Positions 964-29,860 of a stretch of 35,253 nt of DNA are shown here, one piece after another. The position numbers and the translations under genes were made by a program. The notes below the pieces were generated by a model. It was not told where the DNA came from, made no database searches, and worked only from the letters and a program-made list of their open reading frames with translations. Where the stretch lies: assembly GCA_025927935.1 (NCBI GenBank), contig JAICKM010000003.1:1-35253 (forward strand). The letters run 5' to 3'. Origin of the DNA: Chloroflexia bacterium (GTDB lineage Bacteria > Chloroflexota > Chloroflexia > QHBQ01 > JADMIH01). Position 1 is the first letter of the stretch. Each line of letters starts with the position of its first letter.

Positions 964-1707
964 TCAGACGGCGGTCACGAGCAGGGGCCGGTCGCGCGTG
1001 ATGACGATGGTGTGCTCGAAGTTGGCGACTGCGCTGTGATCGCGGGTCTTGATCGTCCAGCCGTTGGCGTCGGTCACCACGGCATCGCGGCCCGCGGCGA
1101 CGTGCGGTTCGACGGCCAGGACCAGCCCTTCGGTCAGGCGCTGCTTGGCCCGCGCGACGAAATAGTTGGGCACCGAGGGCGCCTCGTGCAGCCCGCGGCC
1201 CACGCCGTGGCCGCACAGCTCGCGCACCACCTGGAAGCCATAGCGCCGGGCGGTCGTCTCGGCGGCGGCCCCGATGCGGTTCATCGGCGCGCCCGCGCGG
1301 GCGGCGTTCAGCGCGGCGTCCAGCGTGGCGCGGGCGCAGTCACACAACTGCTGCTTGCGGGCGGGCAGGGGCGGCACGGGCACGGTCAGGGCGGCGTCGG
1401 CGAAGTAGCCGTTCAGTTCCGCGGACAGGTCGAGCTTCACCAGGTCGCCTTCGCGAATGGTGCGGTCGCCCGGAATGCCGTGCGCCGCTTCTTCGTTCAG
1501 GCTGATGCAGGCGATGCCGGGGAACTTGTAGACCAGCAGCGGGGCTGGGCGCGCGCCGTACTTCTTCAGGAACGCGCCGCCGATGGCATCCAGGTCGCGG
1601 GTGGTCATGCCGGGCTGCACCTGGGCCTGCATATGCTGTAGTGTGAGGCCCACAATTTCCCCGATCCGGCGCAGGGCGGTTAGATCTTTTTCGGTTTCAA
1701 TCGACAT
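964..1707 (-). CDS. map: Type I methionine aminopeptidase
   Basis: A 247-aa cytosolic metallopeptidase that removes the initiator methionine from nascent proteins. All five metal ligands of the family can be placed: Asp93 (KLDLSAE), Asp104 (YFADAA), His167 (CGHGVGRG), Glu200 (AVEPHV) and Glu231 (FEHTIV). The substrate-contacting His76 is in NEEAAHGIPGD. The length matches the short bacterial type I enzyme without a zinc-finger extension. The ATG at 1707 is preceded by GGAGG about 7 bases upstream, which supports this start. A BtrH-like gene follows after 14 bases, so map is the first gene of a probable two-gene operon. The bases just upstream carry an 11-bp direct repeat (1731-1741 and 1743-1753) of no known role. 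The identification is firm. Confidence 0.95.
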   Translation of the reverse strand: MSIETEKDLTALRRIGEIVGLTLQHMQAQVQPGMTTRDLDAIGGAFLKKYGARPAPLLVYKFPGIACISLNEEAAHGIPGDRTIREGDLVKLDLSAELNGYFADAALTVPVPPLPARKQQLCDCARATLDAALNAARAGAPMNRIGAAAETTARRYGFQVVRELCGHGVGRGLHEAPSVPNYFVARAKQRLTEGLVLAVEPHVAAGRDAVVTDANGWTIKTRDHSAVANFEHTIVITRDRPLLVTAV

Positions 1708-9900: not shown

Positions 9901-10577
9901 TGATGATCACCACCGGCTACAACCCGTACTTCTACGGCGTGGTCCGCTCCTGGTGCCGGGGCGCCAGCATGGCGGGCCTGCTCGCCAAGGTGGAGTTGAG
10001 CGAGGGCGACATCGTCATGGCGATGACCAAGACGCTCGACGTGATGCGCCAAGTACGGGAGATGTTGCTCCACCACAATCCCGACAACCCGCTTTACCCC
10101 GCGCTGCGCGAAGCCGAGGGCCTCTTGCGCCGGGGTGTGGTCGAGATGGTCAACAGCATCGGCTTCGTGCGCAGCGGCCAGGAGTCGACCGAGCCGGGCG
10201 CCGCGGGGCCGGTGGCCGCCGCGGAACCGGCCAAATCCGCCGGCAGCGGCTTCGCCGACGTGGATCGTATGCTGGGCATCCTGGCCGACCCCAACTCCAC
10301 CCCGCCGCCGATCCACCCGCCGGATACCGGCTTGCAGCGCCCGGACCGCCCGGCACGGTTCCCCCGCCACGAGCGGGACGGCGAACCGGCGCGCCCGCCC
10401 CAGCACCGCACGGGCAATCCCGGCGCGGGCCGCGATCGCACCGCGCGCCCCCCGGCCTCCGGTGGGCGGGACCGGGACGCGCGCCCGCCCTACTCCGGCG
10501 GCACGCACCCTAAGCGCCGCACCCGCCCCGGTCGCGACACGCGCCCCGGCGGGAGCCCGCGCCGCGGCGGCGGTTAG
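6906..10577 (+). CDS. helY: Ski2-like DEIH-box RNA helicase (HelY-like) with basic N- and C-terminal extensions
   Basis: About 1223 aa. Residues 1-140 are a Pro/Ala-rich tail with three basic patches (KKPRAPRKRP, RKRRAPRKT, RRRRTTRKT). The helicase core has Walker A APTGTGKT at 186-193, the DEIH box at 278-281, the SAT motif near 310 and motif VI QMAGRAGRRG at 548-557. A CHTCP motif near residue 850 and a C-terminal DSHCT-type helical domain match the HelY/Mtr4 family, ATP-dependent 3'-5' RNA unwinders. The last 80 residues are Arg/Pro/Gly-rich and probably bind RNA. The frame is open from a TTG at 6879, but TTG at 6906 has GAGGAG 9 bases upstream and is preferred; no ATG serves. The stop is 2 bases before the next gene. 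The gene symbol is by similarity. Confidence 0.9.
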   Translation: MDDSTPPSDPTTPAKKPRAPRKRPTAPAQPITPVEPVAAAAVDAPLPPPELLPVPGETDVVPPRKRRAPRKTAVTPPADALELPVPEPHAGPEPVAVAPINVATDVPVAELVAPPRRRRTTRKTVEIAPPPLPAPGPLGPIAEDFDPHDPVQLVAAFRARYPFPLDAFQEEAIGFLAANESVLVAAPTGTGKTVVAEFGVFRAHARGWRVIYTTPIKALSNQKFRDLREQYGEAVGLLTGDIVENREGSILIMTTEVLRNMLLQTPSELWGVGCIVFDEIHYLADKERGTTWEESIIMCPPDVQLACLSATVSNAAEIAEWISRTHRPVHLVSHTQRAVPLSYYYYLDGELNLTINAAGVQVANFAGVGGEVRRRVRGSAWSSAGDEDDGPPRERPEPTAREIVESLERRNMLPAIFFLFSRRDCESAAEVCAMMRFRAAHEPDTRRRIETVIATYMDRLAPEDRTLEQVQSITYLARRGLGFHHAGLLPILKQLVEELFSAGLMRVVFATDTLALGINMPARSVVIGRMSKWDGVQRRPLLPNEFQQMAGRAGRRGIDEQGHVVIPYSPWVSFEDALAIATGPLLPVESAFTVRYNTILNLWDPPDGDRVLDVMRHSLLQFQQSRRLLELEDTVAEWDQAVAAVPEGCLIGLPAGEELLSEYEALGRAAQTGRDRLRKLSGARERLAAQRTALPWTRPDRETLRRLLRVFPRGGVVHLENRGWAVYLGPRAGGAHLFWLGDHVMALTGYSTIDYVPPQRPQVTLPPELADLADGEVAAPSGEPIPVSHEARAWMAEQLAGIDLPDLEQWILSHQQTQGAEIEEQLQQFDTQVAEAEEYVRRVAGEERAHVCHTCPVRKQHRHYRRERGRLEAGRQEAVDYLEGRRAYEDTRLQALLDGLVAVLRRFYYLTREGEKTPKAARLMDIFDTNALMISELIEGGYLETLSAPDVAEVFSWFAYDRDIEFRNRNLLPGNLVHLRRQMDELQRDIFGAERRNDLMITTGYNPYFYGVVRSWCRGASMAGLLAKVELSEGDIVMAMTKTLDVMRQVREMLLHHNPDNPLYPALREAEGLLRRGVVEMVNSIGFVRSGQESTEPGAAGPVAAAEPAKSAGSGFADVDRMLGILADPNSTPPPIHPPDTGLQRPDRPARFPRHERDGEPARPPQHRTGNPGAGRDRTARPPASGGRDRDARPPYSGGTHPKRRTRPGRDTRPGGSPRRGGG

Positions 10578-10579
10578 CG

Positions 10580-11002
10580 ATGGACCTCTGGGCCGCCCTG
10601 GCGACGCTGGACGCACTGGGCCTGCCCCGCGAGAGCTACGCCGTCTTCGGCAGCGGCCCGCTGGCCGCCCGTGGCCTGCGCGAAAGCGGCGACCTGGATA
10701 TTATCGTGTCGCCCGCGCTCTGGACGGACCTGGCCCAACGCTATCCGGTCCGGCACAAGGCTGAGTGGGCCGCCGTTATGATCGGTGACATCGAGGTCTG
10801 GGATCGCTGGCACCCCGCTGCCGGGCCGGTGGCCGATCTCCTGGCCGGGGCGGAGGAGATCCGCGGATACCGTTTCGTGCGCCTGGACAGGGTGCTGGCC
10901 TGGAAGGAAGCGGCGGGCCGCCCCAAGGACCGCGCCGACGCGGCCCTAATCCGGCGCTATCTAATCGAGCACCCGGATGCGCGGGACGGAACTCCGGCAT
11001 AA
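10580..11002 (+). CDS. Nucleotidyltransferase-like protein
   Basis: 140 aa. The segment FGSGPLAARGLRESGDLDII (residues 23-42) has the nucleotidyltransferase-fold signature of a GSG turn, a basic helix and two acidic residues, Asp38 and Asp40, on the following strand. A third acidic residue may be in the GDIEVWD segment, residues about 69-75. The C-terminal part (AWKEAAGRPKDRADAALI) resembles the conserved lysine and KDxxD pattern of small nucleotidyltransferase-fold proteins. Substrate and activity are unknown. The ATG lies 2 bases after the helicase stop, so translation is almost certainly coupled. A role with RNA is suggested only by this context. Confidence 0.7.
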   Translation: MDLWAALATLDALGLPRESYAVFGSGPLAARGLRESGDLDIIVSPALWTDLAQRYPVRHKAEWAAVMIGDIEVWDRWHPAAGPVADLLAGAEEIRGYRFVRLDRVLAWKEAAGRPKDRADAALIRRYLIEHPDARDGTPA

Positions 11003-11080
11003 GCCGCCTGCTCGTGTTGCGTCCCGTGATCCGGTGGACCATTGTAGCCCGCCTTACATAAACTTTTCGGCGGGCGCACA

Positions 11081-11086
11081 TATAAT
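11081..11086 (+). promoter_or_regulatory. -10 element of the cysteine-rich leader transcript
   Basis: Perfect TATAAT; the expected start is near 11093, about 20 bases before the ATG at 11114. No good -35 is visible at 16-18 bases; TTACAT is 21 bases upstream. Confidence 0.55.
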
Positions 11087-11113
11087 GCGAGAAACGCGGA
11101 GAATAGGATCCCG

Positions 11114-11293
11114 ATGATGAGCAGCAAGCAGATGCAGCAGCAGAGCACAGGCAACGCGGGCGGATGCCCCGTGGTGGCGTGTGCCGTGTGTTGTTGCGCC
11201 TGTACGGGGCTGGTTGCGTGCTGTTGTTGTACGCCCAGCTATTCTGCCCCGGCGCCCCTGCTGCTCTCGCTTGCCGAGATCCGGATAATCTAA
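11114..11293 (+). CDS. Cysteine-rich 59-codon leader peptide (putative attenuator ORF)
   Basis: ATGATG start with AGGA at 11105-11108, 5 bases upstream of the first ATG. The product has a polar Gln/Ser-rich start (MMSSKQMQQQ), then ten cysteines between residues 18 and 39 (VCCCAC at 25-30 and ACCCCT at 35-40), then a Pro/Leu tail ending LAEIRII. It has no homology I recognise. A -10 box precedes it and an intrinsic terminator follows 46 bases after its stop; a thiosulfate sulfurtransferase gene begins 188 bases after the stop. Runs of Cys codons ahead of a terminator and a sulfur gene suggest a cysteine-responsive attenuator. It could instead be a small metal-binding protein. The minus-strand ORF across this region has no such support. 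Confidence 0.65.
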   Translation: MMSSKQMQQQSTGNAGGCPVVACAVCCCACTGLVACCCCTPSYSAPAPLLLSLAEIRII

Positions 11294-11338
11294 CTTCTGC
11301 TGCCGCCTGACCGCGGTAACTGCACACCGAATCATGAC

Positions 11339-11371
11339 AGGGGTTGCCCAATGGGGTAACCCCTTTTTGTT
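11339..11371 (+). terminator. Intrinsic terminator between the Cys-rich ORF and the sulfurtransferase gene
   Basis: AGGGGTTgCCC pairs with GGGgtAACCCCT across a short AAT loop, followed directly by TTTTTGTTG. It is a strong stem with a U-tract, placed as an attenuator would be. Confidence 0.9.
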
Positions 11372-11383
11372 GTGTGCAAACAG

Positions 11384-11401
11384 CCTCACAACGGCGTGAG
11401 G
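11384..11401 (+). promoter_or_regulatory. Small hairpin in the sulfurtransferase leader
   Basis: CCTCAC and GTGAGG form a perfect 6-bp stem with loop AACGGC. Its CCTC could alternatively pair with the GAGG of the Shine-Dalgarno at 11468-11474. The role is speculative. Confidence 0.35.
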
Positions 11402-11481
11402 TGCAGGCGCCGGCAGGCCGGTCGCATCCGCCGGTGTATTTAGGAAAAGCACCACGCACCATTTTTAGAGGAGGATCAACC

Positions 11482-12399
11482 ATGACTAGCTCAGGCGTAA
11501 TTGAAGGCACCTCGCAAGCATCCGGCGAGGAGAAGTTCCAGGGCTACGCGAATCCCGATATCCTGGTCTCGACCGAGTGGCTGGCCGAGCATCTGCAGGA
11601 CACCGGCCTGCGCGTTCTCGAAGCCGACGAGGATGTGTTGCTCTACGACCAGGGCCATATCCCCGGCGCGATCAAACTCGATTGGCTCACCGAACTCAAC
11701 GACCCGCTGCGCCGCGACTACCTCGACCAGACCCAATTCGAGGCGCTGCTCTCGCGCAAGGGCATCAGCAACGACGATACCCTCATCTTCTACGGCGACA
11801 AGAACAACTGGTGGGCCACCTACTCCTTCTGGGTCTTCCAACTCTTCGGTCACACCAGCGCCAAGATCCTCGACGGCGGGCGCACCAAGTGGCTCGCCGA
11901 GGGCCGCTCCGTCGAGACCACGACGCCCAGCTACTCGCCCACCACGTACAAGGCCAAGAGCCGCGACGACAGCGCCATCCGCGCCTTCCGCGACGAGGTG
12001 CGCGATCTGCTGGACAAAGAGGGCAAGACCATCAAGGCGGGGCAGGCGCTGGTGGACGTGCGCTCGCCAGGCGAGTACAGCGGGGAACTGCTGCACATGG
12101 CGAACTACCCACAGGAAGGCGCGTTGCGCGGGGGGCACATCCCCGGCGCAGCGAACATCCCCTGGGCGCAGGCGGCGCAGGAGGACGGCACGTTCAAGCC
12201 GGTGGAGCAGTTGCGCGCGCTGTACGAAGGCAAGGGCGTGACCAAGGACAAGGCTGTGGTGACGTACTGCCGCATTGGCGAGCGCAGCAGCCACACCTGG
12301 TTTGTACTCAAGTACCTGCTGGGCTACGACAAGGTGCGCAACTACGACGGCTCGTGGACGGAGTGGGGCAACCTGGTCGGCGCGCCCATCGAGCGATAA
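11482..12399 (+). CDS. Thiosulfate sulfurtransferase (two-domain rhodanese)
   Basis: 305 aa, two rhodanese domains. The N-terminal domain (about 20-150) is catalytically degenerate and contains [13 protein letters not shown]. The C-terminal domain (about 165-300) carries the active-site loop CRIGERS with persulfide cysteine Cys263, as in the SseA/CysA-type enzymes that move sulfane sulfur from thiosulfate to cyanide or thiols. The length and the [14 protein letters not shown] motif are typical. The frame is open further upstream to 11344, but the ATG at 11482 has a perfect GAGGAGG at 11468-11474 and the family starts here. It follows the Cys-rich ORF and terminator with no obvious promoter between. 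Carbonic anhydrase, ATP-grasp and DUF4395 genes follow. Confidence 0.93.
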
Positions 12400-12400
12400 C

Positions 12401-12512
12401 GAGTGCTGAGTGCGCAATGGGGCGCGGCACAGCGCGCTGGGAGGCCGCAAGCACAGAGCTAAGTGCTGAGTGACGACGAGTGGTCAGTGGCCGTATGACG
12501 CGTGCTGAGCGC
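12401..12512 (+). repeat. Degenerate heptamer repeats (GTGCTGA and GGTCAGT types)
   Basis: AGTGCTGAGTG occurs at 12402-12412 and 12462-12472, a related GTGCTGAG at about 12502, and GTGGTCAGTGG at 12480-12490. The 234-base gap between the sulfurtransferase and carbonic anhydrase genes otherwise holds only the ribosome-binding site of the latter. Confidence 0.5.
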
Positions 12513-29679: not shown

Positions 29680-29722
29680 GTACGCTGCGGCCTGTATGGC
29701 GCCGCGGAAAGGAGCAATCCCA

Positions 29723-29860
29723 ATGGCTGAGCAGAAATGCGCGAACTGTGGAATGGCGAAAAGCGAGTGGCAAGGCAACAACGGCCAGGGCATCACCCTG
29801 GGCGATAAGACCTATTGCTGCCAGGGCTGCGCCATCGGCACCGGGTGTACATGCAAATAA
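29723..29860 (+). CDS. 45-aa cysteine-rich metal-binding-like protein
   Basis: The sequence begins MAEQKCANCGM and ends YCCQGCAIGTGCTCK, with seven cysteines (6, 9, 32, 33, 36, 42, 44). The KCANCG knuckle plus a CCxGC...CTC cluster would form a treble-clef- or metallothionein-like zinc site. Short proteins with a CCxGCAxGTGCTC ending occur next to stress genes in several phyla, as far as I recall. It has a strong ribosome-binding site (AAAGGAG, 8 bases upstream) and sits directly before a strong terminator. The function is unproven; metal buffering or stress response is an inference. Confidence 0.8.
   Translation: MAEQKCANCGMAKSEWQGNNGQGITLGDKTYCCQGCAIGTGCTCK

Follow-up and report, generated by a model that had tools for sequence, protein, structure and literature searches.

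Putative cysteine-sensing attenuators with polycysteine leader ORFs ahead of sulfurtransferase and cysK-family genes in Chloroflexota

Known Polycysteine Leaders

Classical attenuators, exemplified by trp, his, leu, and ilv, combine a leader open reading frame (ORF) rich in the sensed residue with a terminator and an alternative antiterminator. The putative system described here differs from these in that the sensed residue would be cysteine, in that transcripts of most leader-bearing relatives look leaderless, and in that the first gene encodes a sulfurtransferase.

For cysteine, the experimental evidence comes from mycobacteria. The mycobacterial gene cysA2 is preceded by a conserved upstream ORF (uORF) that contains a run of Cys codons and displays ribosome occupancy (Shell 2015, PMC4633059, in its accessible text). 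Cysteine-responsive attenuation was shown in mycobacteria by Canestrari 2020, as related in the accessible portions of PMC9031893, PMC13236596, and PMC9094748. Earlier, for Actinobacteria, Seliverstov 2005 (PMC1262725) had put forward Cys-run leader peptides as candidates ahead of cys operons and cbs; the available part of that paper reports no conserved hairpin able to serve as a terminator and suggests a role for Rho. In the literature found, as far as its accessible text extends, cysteine-directed attenuation has been demonstrated experimentally in mycobacteria alone, and the related actinobacterial leaders lack terminators. Another prediction is the uORFC-8-2 motif before cysS in Rhodobacterales, which pairs a Cys-codon uORF with an intrinsic terminator and is read, in the portion of the paper available, as ribosome-mediated attenuation (PMC8632094).

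The locus considered here lies in a stretch of 35,253 nucleotides from a Chloroflexia bacterium (GenBank assembly GCA_025927935.1, contig JAICKM010000003.1), the whole of which we call the window. By the similarity of its sulfurtransferase, too, the window falls near Chloroflexota. Like the mycobacterial polycysteine uORFs, as the accessible sources present them, it has a short Cys-run ORF before a thiosulfate sulfurtransferase (ST) gene. Most leader-bearing Chloroflexota regions also resemble the leaderless mycobacterial uORFs in that the ORF starts 5 to 9 nt past a -10-like site, whereas the ORF in the window, which belongs to a different phylum, has a 5' leader with a Shine-Dalgarno (SD) sequence. 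Unlike the mycobacterial uORFs, again as the available text describes them, the window has an intrinsic terminator (11339-11364) and a predicted antiterminator; no common leader sequence is apparent. The actinobacterial cys leaders share Cys runs with the present leaders, but terminators are present only here, judging by the accessible text (PMC1262725). As for uORFC-8-2, the seen part of its description gives two tandem Cys codons before cysS in Alphaproteobacteria (PMC8632094), in contrast to ST and cysK-family genes, Chloroflexota, and mostly longer Cys runs here; the first gene in the window is a rhodanese gene.

The preliminary description of this DNA, made from its letters, knew of no such system in Chloroflexota, and our search for literature on leader peptides or attenuation in Chloroflexi or Anaerolineae, which left most subscription papers outside its reach, likewise found no description of one. 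PMC4833913, which mentions Chloroflexi, has nothing on cysteine, and PMC2965389, on attenuators in general, has cysteine in its reference list only. What is new is thus a terminator-equipped polycysteine attenuator, if the reading below holds, in a further phylum; polycysteine sensing itself was already known.

The Leader Region in the Window

The features of the putative attenuator are as follows, with positions counted in the window.

11081 to 11086, + strand: -10-like TATAAT of the leader transcript, from sequence, without a good -35
11098 to 11108, + strand: SD-like GGAG (11098-11101) and AGGA (11105-11108), 5' of the leader ORF
11114 to 11293, + strand: polycysteine leader ORF, ATG start, 59 codons, 10 Cys
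11189 to 11197, + strand: Cys codons 26-28 (CCC run), from folding one of the two sites at which a stall is predicted to weaken the terminator
11219 to 11230, + strand: Cys codons 36-39 (CCCC run), from folding the main predicted stall site
11245 to 11260, + strand: predicted antiterminator strand, pairing with 11338-11343, 11345-11348, and 11353-11358 (16 pairs)
11339 to 11364, + strand: intrinsic terminator stem-loop AGGGGTTGCCC-AATG-GGGTAACCCCT, 11 pairs, loop of 4, -20.5 kcal/mol
11365 to 11372, + strand: terminator T tract TTTTGTTG, directly 3' of the stem
11467 to 11475, + strand: SD AGAGGAGGA of the sulfurtransferase gene
11482 to 12399, + strand: ST gene, presumed regulated gene, with two rhodanese stretches (PF00581, E 7e-36)

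The preliminary description had listed a TATAAT, a 59-codon Cys ORF, an SD, a terminator, and then a sulfurtransferase, with the terminator stem beginning 46 bases past the leader stop codon (11291-11293); each part is in place, and the distance is correct. Cys occupies codons 18, 23, 26-28, 30, and 36-39 of the leader ORF, giving the tandem codons for one amino acid that characterize an attenuator (runs CCC and CCCC), and no other ORF among the 319 of 20 to 100 aa on both strands of the whole window has as high a Cys count. The start is SD-led, in contrast to most leader-bearing relatives, with 27 nt between the -10 and the ATG. The best -35 candidate for the TATAAT is TAAACT, a poor match.

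The terminator stands between the leader ORF and the first gene, as in an attenuator, and this arrangement recurs in relatives; ST starts 188 nt past the leader stop. The scan of 10500-12500 picked out three sites that look like terminators, where 1.3 would be expected; apart from the one above, they have 5 to 7 pairs. The preliminary description had suggested that control might extend to the carbonic anhydrase, ATP-grasp, and DUF4395 genes, an idea to which a promoter and terminator scan 3' of ST lent no support: it gave two weak candidate terminators of 5 pairs each, with 1.3 expected, and one of them separates ST from the carbonic anhydrase gene. A promoter scan of 10500-12500 found no sigma-70-like site, not even the leader's own TATAAT. 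This result agrees with the earlier statement that no clear promoter lies between the leader and ST, and so nothing favors an independent promoter past the terminator, although the leader's -35 is equally poor.

The presumed regulated genes fall within the metabolism of the sensed amino acid, ST being a sulfur-transfer enzyme, to which the cysK-family genes discussed below are added. An Rfam scan of the window returned no families at gathering score, and a riboswitch was rejected as an explanation, since there is no Rfam match and the Cys runs would be left unexplained. The leader peptide has no match in Pfam.

Recurrence Ahead of Sulfurtransferase Genes

A scan of genome contigs provided 80 loci with ST homologues, the best 67% identical to the window ST, and among them actinobacterial ST at 57 to 64% identity. 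The window has the mycobacterial arrangement of a Cys-run uORF ahead of what these homologues suggest is a cysA2-type sulfurtransferase. The 80 loci and the window together hold 12,252 short ORFs (1.58 Mb, both strands counted), of which 88 have at least five Cys per 25 codons. A terminator follows six of these 88 at a distance of up to 170 nt. Half of the six are located directly 5' of ST, namely the window ORF (10 Cys), L005 (8), and L003 (5, a count that ties with the remaining three). The genomes of L003 and L005 belong to the same family. L003 has a promoter, TTGACA-18-TATATT, seven bases 5' of its ATG, encodes the leader MMTMPLYPPAVCCPTCCCTQRFMLPARGGMSVI, and carries its terminator at 528-548. 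The L005 leader peptide is MQNFPCCPMCCRACAPCLMVCGVSMCGGSPYPA, and its terminator is bulged, as detected by a custom script and missed by the standard scan. Searching the genomes of two relatives with the 59-aa window leader yielded nothing beyond weak matches, and L005's own leader escaped the search, which indicates that searching by sequence fails to recover these leaders.

The preliminary description had proposed looking for Cys-rich ORFs 5' of this sulfurtransferase in related genomes, and the search proved productive. ST is present in 137 of the 154 genomes of the Chloroflexota order that contains L005's genome, and the order sample comprises 107 distinct places, fewer than the 137 genomes with an ST match. 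The test applied to 183 distinct ST-upstream regions asked for an ATG ORF that has a CC run, contains at least three Cys per 25 codons, and is followed no more than 140 nt past its stop by a terminator. Thirty-seven passed. L186 was dropped because it shares its genome with L031, which leaves 36 of 182. Of these, 34 come from the 107 regions of the one order, one (L052) from the 74 regions outside it, and the last is the window itself. The other 73 of the 107 order regions did not pass. A class-wide ST search added one more pass (L317) among 27 further loci, two of which repeat earlier ones (L312 is L002, and L319 is L004).

This recurrence is specific for cysteine. When the same test was applied to other residues in the same 183 regions, the highest counts were 13 for Arg, 12 for Met, and 10 for Gly, compared with 37 for Cys. 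Moreover, runs of three occur in 22 regions for Cys and in at most 3 for any other residue. None of 3,000 random windows passed; most of the DNA in these controls probably codes for protein, and the residue comparison within upstream regions is therefore the fairer control. Conservation of the Cys codons and terminator among relatives, on which the first proposal had been staked, is thus seen in the order (34 of 107) and fails in part in L293 and L294, which keep a CCC leader and lack the intrinsic terminator. It is this comparison among relatives that bears the main weight of the case for the putative attenuator.

One ST-upstream region, L034 from Kineococcus, contains an ORF (MMTGLSAECRRLRHRRRRHIDLCRSVTTACPR) that may resemble actinobacterial leader peptides.

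Leader Types and Promoter Geometry

Leaders of different types before ST vary in length and sequence and have little in common beyond their Cys runs. Two types recur among the relatives. Type A leaders are MMTxxLYPxxCCxMCCxC-like, with a TATATT 7 nt 5' of the ATG. Type B leaders have about 20 codons, with two to four Cys in a run close to the stop, which is TAG (TAA in L052 and L211) and is mostly followed directly by GCGGG; a terminator like AAGTCAACCCGC..GGTTGGCTT lies 42 to 46 nt past the stop in the 16 leaders of this type. By sequence, the window leader is of neither type and has no evident similarity to either.

R1, a covariance model built for type B, was run against 396 genomes of the class. 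Its 11 strong matches (E at most 1.1e-17) lie directly before ST without exception. Five of these came from outside the training set (L206, L207, L208, L211, and L213), and one of the five, L208, has no ATG ORF passing the Cys test. Weak matches (E 2.8e-6 and worse) were examined in 19 loci, 17 of them without ST, including L214 and L215; L217 is before ST, yet no Cys ORF passed there. Another weak match, L230, lies in genome G067 before a second ST, a paralogue with 50% identity; a Cys-rich ORF with a terminator stands ahead of the gene there, at 1357-1488 (+).

A script found a -10-like hexamer 5 to 9 nt before an in-frame ATG in 29 of the 36 leaders. Promoter scores of at least 8 were obtained for 25 leaders compared with 18 of 3,000 random ATGs, in a comparison that tried several in-frame starts per leader and one per control ATG; L085's promoter is unconvincing. 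Judging from this spacing, the transcripts of most leader-bearing relatives look leaderless.

Predicted Alternative Folds

We placed a ribosome at each codon in turn, with footprint offsets of 12 to 16, and folded the RNA that it leaves uncovered. In the window, the terminator is predicted to form with a probability of roughly 0.9 or more at most codons, dropping to 0.36 to 0.40 at the weakest. All five codons with the lowest values are Cys at offsets 15 and 16, as are four of five at 13 and 14 and three of five at 12; at offsets 12 and 13, the weakest codon is Thr40, directly after the Cys run. The alternative fold is predicted to make up about half of the ensemble when a ribosome stalls on the Cys runs, and its antiterminator strand begins 15 nt past the last Cys codon. 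Dinucleotide shuffles matched the window switch in 4 of 200 cases by the minimum and in 1 of 200 by the mean. The corresponding figures are 0 of 200 for L003 and 25 and 24 of 200 for L005, which does no better than shuffles.

An equilibrium switch, defined as a terminator probability below 0.5 at a Cys codon and above 0.7 at the stop, is predicted for 13 of the 36 ST leaders and is absent from 23. In nascent-RNA folding of the 36 leaders pooled, 24 lie above their own shuffle mean (KS p = 0.002, with related sequences treated as independent). Taken singly, four of the 36 reach at most 5 of 100 shuffles, and the window is unremarkable (33 of 100).

In type B, the GCGGGT directly past the stop can pair with the terminator's ACCCGC. 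Five or six of the six pairs are retained in 11 of 16 rows, and the remaining five rows break outer ones. L191 keeps six of six by a two-sided change at the first pair in alignment A1, whereas alignment A2 misplaces L191 by one base. Counted covariation in the type B antiterminator and terminator was nothing above shuffles. Taken together, the predictions support a fold switch in the window and part of the leader set, and elsewhere the layout suggests one.

A Second Gene: the cysK Family

The same arrangement precedes a second gene family. A cysKM search within one family, from which 41 genomes were drawn, returned 30 loci, all examined, and nine have a polycysteine ATG ORF and hairpin upstream (L234, L235, L236, L237, L244, L251, L252, L255, and L257), with the leader stop 110 to 399 nt before the cysKM match. 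Three have weak hairpins of -4 to -6 kcal/mol (L244, L252, and L257), leaving six convincing cases, and an equilibrium switch is predicted in one of the nine (L255). Five of the nine genes reach the curated cysKM threshold of 344 bits (L234, L235, L236, L237, and L244), and the other four score 331 to 337.

In genomes G040, G042, G070, and G096, cysE adjoins the cysK-family gene; the cysE loci L263, L267, L268, and L269 repeat four of the cysK-family places. Leaders before cysK-family genes, four of which adjoin cysE, tie the leaders to cysteine supply. The 60 loci scanned for these leaders contain two more ORFs that pass the same test at positions not before cysK (one in L235 and one in L237/L263). 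The leaders of L244, L252, and L257 share CLNAGR/CLNGG stretches along with their weak hairpins and are perhaps a further family without a strong terminator.

Proposed Mechanism and Competing Explanations

We consider it likely that the feature in the window is a ribosome-mediated transcription attenuator that reads the supply of cysteinyl-tRNA. The share of about 0.4 that the terminator keeps in the predicted ensemble at its weakest codon tempers this view slightly. The parts of the system are present, and they recur before ST and cysK-family genes. The preliminary description had arrived at a cysteine attenuator too, and that reading gains support from the recurrence before ST (36 of 182) and before cysK-family genes (9 of 30), from the specificity for Cys, and from folding of the window. 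Leader translation, stalling, and the response to cysteine are what we infer. Transcription would start just past the TATAAT, and a ribosome would translate the polycysteine leader behind RNA polymerase. With ample Cys-tRNA, the ribosome would reach the stop, past 11245-11260, so that the hairpin at 11339-11364 would form and transcription would end. When Cys-tRNA is scarce, the ribosome would stall on the CCC or CCCC run, and 11245-11260, just past its footprint, would be free to pair with both terminator arms. With the arms engaged, polymerase would continue into the sulfurtransferase gene.

An alternative is that the polycysteine ORF acts through translation or Rho-dependent polarity, as reported or suggested for mycobacteria, with the hairpin ending transcription constitutively or only in part. 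There is precedent in the conserved Cys-run uORF of cysA2 (PMC4633059), whose action was later termed translation attenuation (PMC13236596), and in the actinobacterial cys leaders without terminators (PMC1262725), each as given in the accessible text. The relatives closest to the window by ST, L293 (73%) and L294 (72%), bear on this alternative as well. Their leaders, at 1354-1410 (+) in L293 (MSERNNLFSHRSNLCCCK) and 1210-1266 (+) in L294 (MSERTMKYSRRSSLCCCR), end in CCCK or CCCR and are preceded by an SD-like GAGGGGAG; an intrinsic terminator was not found in either locus. The window leader sequence, sought in these closest relatives, is not shared. By eye, a hairpin surrounds the Cys codons of both, with arms CTCCAATC/GATTGGAG versus CTCCAGTT/AACTGGAG that differ in matching ways, and these leaders may be a translational version of the system; in L295, the third closest by ST, the upstream sequence is too short for a leader to be assessed. 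The lack of an equilibrium switch in 23 of 36 leaders also speaks for control without a fold switch. Against it, a hairpin and T tract follow the leader in 36 regions, which was the search criterion itself, yet other residues give far fewer regions. Moreover, the type B hairpin keeps its place 42 to 46 nt past the stop in 16 leaders, and in the window the 188 nt between the leader stop and ST contain the terminator. On balance, we regard translational or Rho-dependent control as unlikely for the window.

A further proposal is that the ORF encodes a real peptide (metal-binding, membrane, or modified Cys-rich) and that the terminator simply ends that gene. At 59 aa, the product is long for a leader, and by eye it has a hydrophobic Cys-rich stretch with GG ahead of the first Cys. 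Also, a near-identical predicted protein, P0001, the one match to the window leader among about 5.8 billion proteins, is identical over the first 56 residues. P0001 lacks a stop at codon 60, and its 81-codon frame ends inside the terminator in window coordinates; if P0001 is real and translated, a ribosome on this frame would reach the hairpin. As read back from the protein sequence, P0001 keeps the residues that encode the 5' arm and differs in the loop codon, which fits a kept hairpin. The absence of a Pfam match, the variation of ST leaders in length and sequence with little common across types but Cys runs, and the same feature before cysK-family genes all count against a functional peptide, which we hold to be very improbable; on these grounds, a modified-peptide or metal-binding gene was rejected. 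Finally, chance, that is, an intergenic Cys-rich stretch that happens to precede a terminator, could appeal to the single window and a leader without evident similarity to type A or B, but with 0 of 3,000 random windows passing, an ORF richest in Cys of 12,252, and recurrence before ST, it is hardly credible.

Returning to attenuation at the level of transcription, we advance a broader proposal tentatively, as having somewhat less than an even chance of being right. In one uncultured Chloroflexota order, cysteine supply (sulfurtransferase and cysK-cysE) may be controlled by polycysteine transcription attenuators that evolved separately and act on leaderless transcripts. On such a transcript, the first ribosome would load directly on the 5' AUG, and sensing would begin with the first RNA nucleotides. 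Gain or loss of the terminator between relatives would convert transcriptional into translational attenuation and back. Should the attenuator reading hold, terminators coupled to polycysteine leaders in a second phylum, often on leaderless transcripts and set before cysK-family genes as well as a sulfurtransferase gene of the same family as in mycobacteria, would indicate wide emergence or persistence of polycysteine sensing and would offer a ready comparison of transcriptional and translational polycysteine control. The leader ORFs also represent extra short genes that annotation may miss.

Elsewhere in the window, at 29696-29860 (+), a 54-aa ORF with seven Cys and no Pfam match looks like a small metal-binding protein.
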